Under the pieces are notes generated by a model. That model saw nothing but the letters and a program-made list of their open reading frames with translations. It was not told the origin of the DNA and did no database searches. A program made the position numbers and the translations under genes. From a bacterium (GTDB lineage Bacteria > Patescibacteriota > Andersenbacteria > UBA10190 > CAIZMI01): DNA of 38,746 bases. Positions within the stretch are counted from its first letter, which is position 1. The number at the start of each line of letters is the position of its first letter. Of the stretch, positions 30,708 through 33,937 are shown in pieces. The DNA lies in contig JAUSJG010000026.1 in NCBI GenBank assembly GCA_030647555.1, positions 1 to 38,746 of the forward strand, written 5' to 3'.

Positions 30708-31136
30708 CTATCCGTTTAACTGCGCTTCGATTTCCGCCGGTGTCTTATCTTCCTGCTCACCCTTGATGGTTGGGTCATAAGCGGGATGCGGAAAGTTAAT
30801 CAACCAAACCTCTTCCGTGCCGATATTTTCAATTCCGATATAAACATTCGTCGGTAAAAGCAGTCTTTCCGGAGTTGCAGAATCTAAAATATGTTCAACT
30901 TTTTGCTTCCCTTCAACAATGGTTATTTTCACCTTTCCGCGCAAACAAACATAATGACTTTGACGTTGATTATGCAAATGATAGCCCTTAAAAGCCCCCG
31001 GCAAGGCCACCGTTAAATATGTAACAGTTTTGTCACCGTCTTTATAAAGCTCAATCAAGTGCCCATTTGGCTCTTTTGTGCCTGTGACGTAAGTGGTAAC
31101 GCGCTTACAAGACTCTTTAGTAATTTGTTCAATCAT
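30708..31136 (-). CDS. Cupin protein, RmlC/WxcM-like sugar epimerase or isomerase
   Basis: 142 residues forming one cupin barrel. GYHLHNQRQSHYVCLRGKVK holds the first cupin motif with its histidines, and LPTNVYIGIENIGTEEVWLI the second. Similar small cupins act on dTDP-4-keto sugars or are isomerase partners in rhamnose and fucosamine pathways; a full RmlC is longer (about 180), so the exact reaction is open. It is the first gene of the epimerase pair and its ATG directly follows structured element E1. No Shine-Dalgarno sequence is available, because the stem of E1 occupies that place. Confidence 0.75.
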   Translation of the reverse strand: MIEQITKESCKRVTTYVTGTKEPNGHLIELYKDGDKTVTYLTVALPGAFKGYHLHNQRQSHYVCLRGKVKITIVEGKQKVEHILDSATPERLLLPTNVYIGIENIGTEEVWLINFPHPAYDPTIKGEQEDKTPAEIEAQLNG

Positions 31137-31276
31137 CCCAGTATATCAACTTCCAATTTGAACGAATGCGATTCGTTCAAACATTTTATGTGCTAAATTC
31201 AAGATTATTTGCATAATTATGGTGTTACGAAATAAGTAATATATCAGATAAAAAAATTGGAAGTTGTATTACTGGG
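31137..31276 (-). promoter_or_regulatory. Inverted-repeat leader element E1 (structured 5' UTR candidate)
   Basis: On the minus strand the element begins CCCAGTA-ATA-CAACTTCCAATTT and ends with AATTGGAAGTTG-ATA-TACTGGG, immediately followed by the ATG. The arms pair except for a symmetric ATA/ATA internal loop. A TTTGAACGAAT/ATTCGTTCAAA hairpin precedes the closing arm. The copy E2 before lepA has the same design, length and loop, but with CG pairs in place of the TT/AA pairs. A promoter just upstream starts transcription at the beginning of the element. Confidence 0.7.
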
Positions 31277-31285
31277 CATAAAGCT

Positions 31286-31314
31286 ATTGTAGTTATTTTG
31301 AACATTTTAAGCAA
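31286..31314 (-). promoter_or_regulatory. Promoter in front of element E1
   Basis: TTGCTT (-35, weak), 17-base spacer, TACAAT (-10, five of six). The start of transcription would be about 31279, three bases before E1, so E1 would be almost the entire leader of the cupin-epimerase mRNA. Confidence 0.55.
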
Positions 31315-31319
31315 AAAGC

Positions 31320-31414
31320 GATGAATAATGATTGATGATTTATGAATAATGAAGAAACGACGCCGATTCGCCGACTCATCATTCATAAATCATCAATCAT
31401 TATTCATAAATCAT
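31320..31414. repeat. Long ATGAATAATGATTGATG inverted repeat
   Basis: GATGAATAATGATTGATGAT...AATGA pairs with TCATCATTCATAAATCATC...ATTCAT across a GC-rich centre (AAACGACGCCGATTCGCCG), giving an imperfect stem of more than 30 base pairs just after the stop of the 102-residue gene. The centre again contains ACGACGCCG, as near 25390. The upstream part of radC (19020-19050) has related CATTCATTAATCATCATTC DNA. Confidence 0.65.
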
Positions 31415-31415
31415 G

Positions 31416-31724
31416 TCAGCTCCTGTTTTCGTCTAAAAACTTTTGTAACCAATACCGCGCGTCATGATTGTTGACGGAAGCATTTTCCTCCTTTACAGAC
31501 GCCGACTTCTTGTATCGATATATCGATACATTCGATACGTTTGAAAAAATACCGTAGATACCGGCGAAGAAAAAGAAAAGTCCACCGACAACCAGATCGG
31601 CAATCGCCCAACCGGGAAGAATATCAGCTAAAGGTAAAATGAGGACAAGCACGCCAAAAACCGTACCCAACAGCCCTAAAATTGAGAATAGCCCATAAAC
31701 GGTTAAAATCGCCTTTTTCTGCAT
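31416..31724 (-). CDS. Small membrane protein, two membrane helices, unknown
   Basis: 102 residues from the ATG (a TTG two codons earlier is possible). Two hydrophobic helices, LTVYGLFSILGLLGTVFGVL and ADLVVGGLFFFFAGIYGIF, are followed by a short polar tail (SVKEENASVNNHDARYWLQK). No family is recognised. It has its own good promoter and is divergent from a 34-residue plus-strand membrane peptide. Confidence 0.65.
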   Translation of the reverse strand: MQKKAILTVYGLFSILGLLGTVFGVLVLILPLADILPGWAIADLVVGGLFFFFAGIYGIFSNVSNVSIYRYKKSASVKEENASVNNHDARYWLQKFLDENRS

Positions 31725-31732
31725 AGCCAAAC

Positions 31733-31761
31733 ACCATAACCTGATGGTAGAATCATGTCAA
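31733..31761 (-). promoter_or_regulatory. Promoter of the 102-residue membrane protein
   Basis: TTGACA, 17-base spacer, TATGGT, nine bases before the ATG. Transcription would begin almost at the start codon. Confidence 0.65.
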
Positions 31762-31795
31762 GCGTGACTTATTTATTATTTTTGACATAACCTCA

Positions 31796-31900
31796 ATGGC
31801 AAAAAAACGAGATGTTAAAATGATCGTTTGGCGAATTTTGGCGATATTTATCGCGCTGGGCACGATCGCCTATTTGGCGTTGCCGTTCTTGAGATACTGA
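31796..31900 (+). CDS. 34-residue single-helix membrane peptide
   Basis: ATG to TGA: MAKKRDVKMIVWRILAIFIA, then LGTIAYLALPFLRY. A basic N-terminus is followed by one clean membrane helix and a short end, the design of genuine bacterial membrane micropeptides rather than of random translation. It lies divergent from the 102-residue gene and converges on lepA, with a hairpin after it. No family is recognised and no Shine-Dalgarno site is seen. Confidence 0.5.
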   Translation: MAKKRDVKMIVWRILAIFIALGTIAYLALPFLRY

Positions 31901-31909
31901 TGAAGACCA

Positions 31910-31954
31910 CAGGGTACAGGCCTTTCGCGTCCGCTTCCTGTTCCCTGTACCCTG
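31910..31954. terminator. CAGGGTACAG hairpin between converging genes
   Basis: CAGGGTACAG and CTGTACCCTG form a perfect ten-base-pair stem around a 25-base loop between the 34-residue peptide and lepA. It may end transcription from either side, but has no T-run. Confidence 0.4.
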
Positions 31955-31961
31955 CCCCCTT

Positions 31962-33770
31962 TCACTCAGACTTTCCCAGCGCCGCTAAATACGCCTCCGG
32001 CGGAATATCCACACTACCCACTTTGGCCATTTTCTTTTTGCCTTTCTTTTGTTTTTCCAGAAGCTTCTTTTTTCGCGTTACATCTCCTCCATACAAATAT
32101 CCGGTAACGTCTTTGCGCATCGCCGGAATTGTTTCGCGGGCAATAACCTTTCCACCAATCGCCGCCTGAATTGCCACCGCGAATAAATGGCGCGGAATAG
32201 CTTCTTTTAGTTTAGCAACAATGCGTCGCCCTTCACGCTGTGCTTGTTCACGCGGAACAATCATCGACAATGGCTCAACCGTTTCTTCGGCGACTAAAAT
32301 TGAAAGTTTAATTAAATCCGTCGGCCGCCAATTTAACATATCGTATGATAATGACGCGTAACCCGCCGACGCACTTTTTAAGGCATCATGTAGATCAATA
32401 ACCACTTCTCGGAGTGGCATTTCCGCAGTAATCAAAACACGCTCTGCCGACAAATATTCAGTATTACGATGAACACCGGCATGCGCGGAAATGAGTGGCA
32501 AAATTCCACCAATGTCTAACGCGCGAGAAATTATTTCCACCAACACCCACTGCTCTTCGGTTGATTCCAGTGCTGATGGATCAGGAAATTCGGTTGGCGT
32601 GCGAATCACTTGCGTTTCCCCGTTTCTCAATTTCACCCGATAAGCAACGCTGGGAACGGTAATTGTAACTTCAATATTATATTCACGTTTTAATCTCTCT
32701 TGAACAATACTCAAGTGAAGTAACCCGAGGAAACCGCAACGAAAACCTTGCCCCAAAGCAGTAGAAGTTTCTTGCTCATATTGTAGTGATGCATCATTGA
32801 GACGATATTTTGCCAGAGCGTCGCGCAAGAAACGAAAATCTTCCCCGGAGTGCGGATAAATACCGGCAAAAACTTTTGGCTGAGGCACTGTGTAACCAGG
32901 TAAAACCAAGTTACCTTTTTCGTCCCGATCTTTGAAATGAATGATTGTATCACCAACACGCGCTTGCGCGACATCTCTCAAACCCGTCGCCACATAACCA
33001 ATTTCACCGGCACACAATTCATCACGGGACGACTCTTTCGGATTTAGAATTCCCAACTCCAGCGATTCGCCACGAACGTTTTCTCCCGCAAAAAGAATCT
33101 CTTGATTCTTTTTTATTCTTCCGTCCACGACACGGATATAAGTAACCACTCCTTTGTAGGCATCAAAAAACGAATCAAACACAAGCGACCGCAAAGGTTT
33201 TTCTTCACTCCCGCTTGGCGGAGGAACCCGCTTCACAATCGACTCCAAAAGTTCCGGCACACCCGCCCCCGTCTTTGCGGAGACCAGCAAAACTTCTTCT
33301 TCGGGAATACCAGTCAATTTCGCAATATCACGACGTGTCCCTGCCACATCCGCCGCCGGTAAATCAATTTTATTCACCACCGCCACAATTGTCAGCCCGG
33401 CTTCTAACGCAAATGTCAGGTTAGCCATCGTTTGTGCCTGAATACCTTGTGTCGCATCCACCAACAACACGGCGCCCTCAACGGCCGCGAGACTGCGCGA
33501 AACTTCATAGGCAAAATCGACATGCCCGGGCGTATCAATCAAATTCAAAATGAATTTTTCATTAAGCGATTTTGATTTGTATTCCATTCTCACCGGCGTC
33601 AATTTGATTGTGATACCCCGTTCACGTTCCAGATCCATCCCATCCAGCATCTGCTCCTGCATCTGCCGTTTTTCCAGTGTCCCGGTTTGCTCGATAAGAC
33701 GATCAGCCAGGGTAGACTTTCCATGGTCGATGTGGGCGATTATGCAGAAATTACGAATTTTGTTGGTCAT
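31962..33770 (-). CDS. lepA: Elongation factor 4 (LepA), ribosome back-translocase GTPase
   Basis: 602 residues, full length. The GTPase motifs AHIDHGKSTLADRL (G1), the RGITIK switch I, DTPGHVDF (G3), NKIDLP (G4) and VSAKTG (G5) are all present, and the end (SVDIPPEAYLAALG) is the LepA-specific C-terminal domain that contacts the tRNA site. It works on the ribosome during initiation or elongation under stress. The gene has no Shine-Dalgarno sequence: its ATG directly follows structured element E2. Confidence 0.97.
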   Translation of the reverse strand: MTNKIRNFCIIAHIDHGKSTLADRLIEQTGTLEKRQMQEQMLDGMDLERERGITIKLTPVRMEYKSKSLNEKFILNLIDTPGHVDFAYEVSRSLAAVEGAVLLVDATQGIQAQTMANLTFALEAGLTIVAVVNKIDLPAADVAGTRRDIAKLTGIPEEEVLLVSAKTGAGVPELLESIVKRVPPPSGSEEKPLRSLVFDSFFDAYKGVVTYIRVVDGRIKKNQEILFAGENVRGESLELGILNPKESSRDELCAGEIGYVATGLRDVAQARVGDTIIHFKDRDEKGNLVLPGYTVPQPKVFAGIYPHSGEDFRFLRDALAKYRLNDASLQYEQETSTALGQGFRCGFLGLLHLSIVQERLKREYNIEVTITVPSVAYRVKLRNGETQVIRTPTEFPDPSALESTEEQWVLVEIISRALDIGGILPLISAHAGVHRNTEYLSAERVLITAEMPLREVVIDLHDALKSASAGYASLSYDMLNWRPTDLIKLSILVAEETVEPLSMIVPREQAQREGRRIVAKLKEAIPRHLFAVAIQAAIGGKVIARETIPAMRKDVTGYLYGGDVTRKKKLLEKQKKGKKKMAKVGSVDIPPEAYLAALGKSE

Positions 33771-33909
33771 CCCAGTATATCAACCGCCAATACAAGCGAT
33801 TTTAAATCGCTTGTAAATCGCATCATTAATGTTAAACCAAGGAAATTATTCATAAGGGTTGTTTGATGATTCTGCCAAATTATCACAAATTGGCGGTTGT
33901 ATTACTGGG
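33771..33909 (-). promoter_or_regulatory. Inverted-repeat leader element E2 (homologue of E1)
   Basis: Begins CCCAGTA-ATA-CAACCGCCAAT and ends ATTGGCGGTTG-ATA-TACTGGG directly before the lepA ATG. The symmetric ATA/ATA loop is kept, two stem pairs differ from E1 in a compensatory way, and a TACAAGCGAT/ATCGCTTGTA hairpin stands where E1 has its own. It fills the murJ-lepA gap apart from 28 bases. A promoter is not clear; lepA may be transcribed with murJ. Confidence 0.7.
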
Positions 33910-33937
33910 TCATACCTATCTTTTATGCTATCCGGCG

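Follow-up and report, generated by a model that had tools for sequence, protein, structure and literature searches.

Two short, homologous elements, E1 and E2, end directly at the start codons of two genes in contig JAUSJG010000026.1 of a Patescibacteria genome (assembly GCA_030647555.1), and they raise the question of whether such sequences are structured leaders kept for the control of those genes or DNA that inserted there. The window, as we call the whole stretch analysed, is 38,746 nucleotides long; E1, E2 and all features given with them below lie on its minus strand. E1 (140 bases, 31137–31276) adjoins the start of a cupin-fold sugar-biosynthesis gene (FdtA/WxcM-like; 30708–31136) and E2 (139 bases, 33771–33909) that of lepA, encoding EF4 (31962–33770), both host genes being identified by Pfam. 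The elements begin CCCAGTA-ATA-CAAC and end GTTG-ATA-TACTGGG, and the next base in each case is the A of the ATG. An earlier sequence-only reading had described these positions, lengths and ends, all of which we found again, and had proposed a family of structured 5′ leaders, with a short transposable element as the alternative. The alternative proves the better reading. Copies of the E1/E2 type arrived by insertion with a 3–5-base target duplication, and they are probably non-autonomous derivatives, by internal deletion, of a very small element that inserts mostly at start codons and has a GIY-YIG nuclease as its sole gene, a class of element that looks undescribed.

Empty sites, target duplications and target choice

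The 14-mer that forms the outer left end has 28 exact matches in the 1.32-Mb genome; the right end has 27, and these pair with left ends. A covariance-model search, which the sequence-only reading had suggested as a check, was run with a model built from 31 copies and recovered those 31 in the genome of the window at full score and no others; in the congener G001, whose LepA is 96% identical, and in the family member G002 it returned zero copies. Orthologous gene starts of G001, obtained for nearly all copies and aligned with the joined flanks, are nearly always empty, with a single ATG where this genome shows ATG-element-ATG. Sites that are still readable reveal a duplication of 3–4 bases (TATG, CATG or ATG), two further duplications lie at the end of an upstream gene (TACT) and at a non-genic site (TTT), and one G001 site retains a decayed copy (L135).

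The same holds for the two elements of the window, whose direct repeats the sequence-only reading had overlooked. The ATG that starts the cupin-fold gene (31134–31136) recurs on the upstream side of E1 (31277–31279), and the empty G001 site (L121) has one ATG. E2 stands between an ATGA that includes the lepA start codon (33767–33770) and a second ATGA upstream (33910–33913), where ATGACCCAGTAA reads Met-Thr-Gln-stop; the orthologous G001 site (L071) is free of the element. Across 87 copies from many genomes, perfect direct repeats of 3–5 bases flank 68, compared with 29 when the flanks are re-paired, and away from ATG they flank 16 of 23 copies, compared with 2.5 expected after re-pairing.

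When a gapped pattern of the ends was compared with 84,980 species genomes, all 12 loci found were in Patescibacteria, namely in Terry-, Yanofsky-, Portnoy- and Curtissbacteria and one further group of the phylum. In a sample of 380 Patescibacteria genomes, at least 15, a lower bound under strict filters, are positive and are spread over many families. Copies are thus missing in the close relatives G001 and G002 yet scattered across distant families, a patchy distribution that fits mobility. Matches of the element to viral contigs were rejected as chance matches within phage genes.

In this genome, 25 of the 31 copies have an ATG at most 2 bases from the right end, in gene orientation in every case. 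The host genes, named from their encoded sequences, include gyrA, dnaB, lepA, ftsH, tig and glyS and those for EF-Ts and the ribosomal proteins L35, L29, S17, L5, L6, S5, L36 and S11. Over many genomes, 67 of 87 copies abut an ATG (64) or a GTG formed anew (3) at the right end, and a new GTG start, composed of the last G of the element and TG, is seen in L148, L149, L220 and L235. Within the window, start codons make up 30% of non-coding TATG and 16% of non-coding ATG, so that the bias exceeds a mere preference for TATG in intergenic DNA. Other insertions are at −35 boxes (TTGA in L161 and L164, TTTGA in L114), at TTTG in the leader of a tRNA (L076/L092) and between genes.

Several copies are arranged in other ways. 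Ultra-short versions with the ends CCCCGTA...TACGGGG (L110, 66 nt; L114, 72 nt; L215, 71 nt) lie at TTGA or TTTGA. One insertion (L022, 4195–4337) falls within the final codons of the gene that precedes rpoA, where TAC TCA CGG TAA has become TAC TCC CGG TAA; the sequence of the element end, CCCGGTAA, leaves the C-terminus of that gene unaltered. In two tandem pairs (L012, 2001–2282; L022, 5735–6016), the copies are unlike and are separated only by TACA or TATG, a spacer that differs from the left flank and for which simple insertion does not account. At G000:C9:8779 (L018), the sequence ...GTACTGGG-ATG-CCCAGTAATACAAC... joins right-end-like and left-end-like pieces through an ATG, perhaps as a remnant of a tandem pair or of a circle-like junction.

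Full-length versions and a proposed route of insertion

A left-end search of 16 positive genomes and longer stretches exposed the full-length copies L196, L200 and L201. Such versions are present in several other genomes, 297–315 bases long and with one open reading frame (ORF) for a GIY-YIG nuclease of 90–102 amino acids. Intact copies with the same ends are L201 (315 nt), L196/L218 (309), L216 (312) and L217 (309), the last of which is from the same taxonomic order as the window; L200 (312) is broken by a single in-frame stop, TGA, and L219 and L220 are of the full-length type with variant ends. The end consensus, CCCNGTA-ATA-CAAC...GTTG-ATA-TACNGGG, is imperfectly inverted. The ORF of L201, MPSNTTSSMFFWVYVLESLKDKDCYVGYTANLKKRIEEHNKG...RRFLGLRLLEYRRHKKAALGSGS, starts at the ATG of the target itself and stops at a TGA within the right end (GTTGATATACTGGG), 9–10 bases 5′ of the restored host ATG. 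The nuclease ORF usually opens in this way at the duplicated host ATG; in L196 the ATGA target gives Met-Thr-Arg-stop, and the nuclease must start at an internal ATG of its own.

This ORF is the only gene between the ends of full-length copies, occupying nearly the entire element with its final codons inside the right end, and no DDE, HUH, tyrosine or serine transposase was seen there. Pfam assigns it to PF01541 (GIY-YIG; E values of 7.6e-16 and 4e-16), and the Tyr, Gly, Arg, His and Glu positions of the superfamily are conserved. In pairwise comparisons Ka is 0.17–0.38 with synonymous sites near saturation, which shows the nuclease to be under purifying selection. An AlphaFold2 (AF2) model, with a predicted local distance difference test score (pLDDT) of 87, has UPF0213 proteins and SLX1, a nuclease of branched DNA, as its closest solved structures. 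None of the phage records encodes a close relative.

Relatives of the nuclease are present in 245 of the 380 sampled Patescibacteria genomes. Among the best 30 matches of this sample, 18 have border inverted repeats scoring above all of 180 control windows drawn from the same loci. Two additional end types emerged, CCNNGTAGTGAAA...TTTCTACTACNNGG and ACCCNGTTAGAG...CTCTAACGGGGT, in the latter of which the stop codon closes the element; relatives with either type have the same one-gene layout, and most recognised elements lie −1 to +11 bases from a downstream start codon. A separate arrangement was observed at L262 (G006:C7:9147–9736), where the first of two tandem GIY-YIG genes is framed by a 32-base inverted repeat of another type.

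We lean towards a wider proposal, with somewhat less assurance than for E1 and E2 themselves: a superfamily of autonomous elements of about 0.3 kb in Patescibacteria, in which a GIY-YIG nuclease of roughly 90–100 amino acids would be the transposase, insertion would be at start codons, the host ATG would be taken over and translation returned by re-initiation. Part of the small GIY-YIG genes of the phylum would then be such elements, and these would be the smallest autonomous transposable elements known.

Copies of 120–150 bases, such as E1 and E2, are best read as internal deletions of the full-length element, judging from short G006 copies that retain C-terminal nuclease codons (for example, GRRFLGSRLLEPKRR in L102 compared with GRRFLGLRLLEYRR in L201). 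Their reading frame is maintained. Of the 31 copies, 22 keep the frame that closes at the right-end TGA open throughout, compared with a mean of 2.7 and a maximum of 8 in 1,000 composition shuffles; in E1 the short ORF MQIILNLAHKMFERIAFVQIGS (31146–31214), whose stop sits in the right end, belongs to this frame, which is open in most copies. Copies whose length is divisible by three are read in this frame from the host ATG, and for other lengths entry is possible through an ATG inside the element, as in E1 at 31212–31214. We infer selection on the host gene, with ribosomes needing to reach the element end to re-initiate. As the frame is open to a point just before the host ATG and the copies become 5′ leaders of their host genes, an effect on translation remains likely. 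At E1 a −10-like TACAAT (31286–31291) lies 6 bases 5′ of the upstream ATG, in line with the promoter that the sequence-only reading had placed there; the empty G001 site retains TACAAT-N6-ATG, and with this spacing transcription is expected to start at about the ATG of what is a leaderless gene.

Taken together, these features suggest the following route. The SLX1-like structure-specific nuclease would nick the foot of the folded element ends, with single-stranded or cruciform DNA as its probable substrate, and would cut the target in a staggered fashion, mostly at start codons of the form (T)ATG(A), with host repair yielding the duplication of 3–5 bases. The ATA/ATA loop (present in 30 of 31 copies in this genome and 52 of 56 elsewhere, as the sequence-only reading had described for E1 and E2) would make the folded strands differ and could thereby offer an enzyme acting on folded DNA a choice of strand and orientation; such a strand-distinguishing fold would suit a nuclease of the SLX1 type, and it is the basis of the proposed mechanism. 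Insertion leaves an intact host ATG directly 3′ of the element, with the second ATG copy opening the element's frame. A ribosome that began at the original start could then re-initiate at the host ATG, 9–10 bases past the element stop, and host gene expression would thus be kept.

Weighing the explanations

Several observations weigh against a start-codon-inserting element moved by its own nuclease. No perfect duplication is present in 19 of the 87 copies, the interiors of short copies in the window's genome are too diverged for nuclease codons, and global DNA alignments of short with full-length copies score weakly above shuffles. The genome of the window yielded no full-length copy, and its four GIY-YIG genes have no such ends; the source would therefore be lost, unassembled or acting from elsewhere. 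Many GIY-YIG genes of the phylum, including more distant ones, also have no flanking inverted repeats, which implies that not every small GIY-YIG gene belongs to such an element.

The copies could instead be ordinary miniature inverted-repeat transposable elements (MITEs) that owe their movement to a conventional transposase (DDE or HUH); the GIY-YIG gene would then be a passenger of some copies. MITEs typically have inverted ends, duplicate 3–5 bases and expand in copy number, and repeats and empty sites are demonstrated here. We nevertheless consider a passenger gene unlikely, given a nuclease that spans nearly the whole full-length element down to the right end, its purifying selection, and a one-gene layout that recurs with two other end types with no other gene between the ends. 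An HUH enzyme is further disfavoured by duplications that covary (TACT/TACT, CATG/CATG), unlike in IS200/IS605-type insertion. That type of insertion was itself set aside on the same ground; by Pfam the single ORF is GIY-YIG, with no Y1 HUH. Integron attC sites, considered for their likeness to CAAC...GTTG, were dropped because the target duplications vary together on both sides.

A regulatory RNA family, with the AUG held at the foot of a closed stem and kept for gene control, would account for the uniform orientation before genes, the housekeeping targets and an open frame that closes before the start codon. A further argument for it is the stem. The homology of E1 and E2, their common stem and the second hairpin directly before the closing arm (31160–31178 in E1, 33792–33814 in E2), all described from sequence before, are borne out by the set of 31 copies, in which 97.7% of stem cells are paired, a share that is 84.0% in shuffles and never exceeds 42% when the arms are slid; 15 of 27 stem pairs have two-sided changes. 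These changes swap A:T and G:C on both sides, and G:U is rare, with 1 of 455 paired stem cells in this genome and 8 of 823 elsewhere. RNA stems usually change through G:U, whereas DNA arms kept equal do not. The near-absence of G:U thus makes DNA inverted repeats a better fit than an RNA kept for its fold, genuine as the covariation appears to be.

Of the sequence-only reading, then, the family, its structure and its placement at start codons hold, and an origin in gene control does not, given the G001 orthologues without an element and the 3–5-base target duplications. There is no vertical association, with one decayed copy only; some copies sit upstream of a tRNA, on −35 boxes or elsewhere between genes; the full-length forms encode a nuclease; and the Rfam search returned only a tRNA and sub-threshold noise, the elements matching no Rfam family. 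We therefore judge a regulatory family quite improbable.

Homing, in which the nuclease would cut the start-codon site and the element be copied in through homologous repair, has in its favour that GIY-YIG is a homing-endonuclease fold (I-TevI) and that conserved genes are targeted. It requires longer flanking homology and yields no duplication, whereas the 31 copies occupy unrelated sites of one genome with 3–5 target bases in common, and Rfam gives no group I or II intron signature; we think it highly improbable, even more so than regulatory leaders. An RNA intron restoring the mRNA seems less likely, given the duplicated target and the scarcity of G:U; the Rfam search gave no intron match.

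Two structural observations stand apart from these readings. In short G005 copies (L089, L094, L097, L101 and L105), a crossing helix (GTTCTT with AAGAAC, GCCAAA with TTTGGC) can be drawn by eye, a candidate pseudoknot that would replace the simple hairpin. A long, near-perfect palindrome, AATGATTGATGATTTATGAATAATGA...TCATTATTCATAAATCATCAATCATT (31326–31402), separates E1 from the next gene; its only hit was a sub-threshold microRNA match on both strands.

Comparison with known systems

Like MITEs, the E1/E2-type copies are short, gene-free and numerous, presumably mobilised in trans, with inverted ends, a target duplication proved by empty sites, and related, putatively autonomous full-length elements with the same ends in other genomes. 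They differ in that the parent element encodes a GIY-YIG nuclease and not a known transposase, and in their start-codon target. With IS200/IS605 and REP/RAYT elements they share very small size, strand-specific imperfect end hairpins, a subterminal hairpin and a short preferred target; unlike these, they have no HUH/Y1 transposase and duplicate 3–5 bases of the actual target, whereas IS200/IS605-type insertion makes no target duplication. The stand-alone GIY-YIG nucleases UPF0213/YhbQ, SLX1 and I-TevI have the same fold and catalytic positions. UPF0213 and SLX1 are proteins of the cell, I-TevI homes an intron, and in no case does the nuclease gene stand alone within an inverted-repeat element. 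GIY-YIG nucleases are also found inside the mobile Penelope-like retroelements (PMC5718144) and, as an accessory that is not essential, in the Tsy transposon (PMC10293859), which differ in requiring a reverse transcriptase or tyrosine recombinases.

In the open-access literature searched, we found no inverted-repeat element with GIY-YIG as its sole gene. Known bacterial transposable elements are generally classed by DDE, HUH, tyrosine or serine enzymes, and a GIY-YIG-only element, if confirmed, would add a further enzymatic class and be the smallest mobile element that codes for a protein. Settling on a start codon so that the host start is kept and the element's enzyme is also expressed would be an unusual lifestyle in streamlined genomes, extending even to ribosomal-protein operons, and a single-domain system of about 100 amino acids makes it easily testable.

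A close parallel by description comes from the candidate phyla radiation (CPR), where insertions in rRNA genes encode GIY-YIG proteins, fit neither the group I nor the group II intron class, were judged to be scattered outside a homing context and include ORF-less insertions of less than 200 bp (J Bacteriol 2024, PMC11270868). Both sets occur in Patescibacteria, encode GIY-YIG proteins and have short ORF-less forms; the published insertions have been described in rRNA genes only, and a text search of that paper (PMC11270868) found neither inverted repeats nor a start-codon target. They may be relatives of the elements described here. Elements of the latter kind would help to account for the abundance of small GIY-YIG genes in Patescibacteria and possibly for the rRNA-gene insertions as well.

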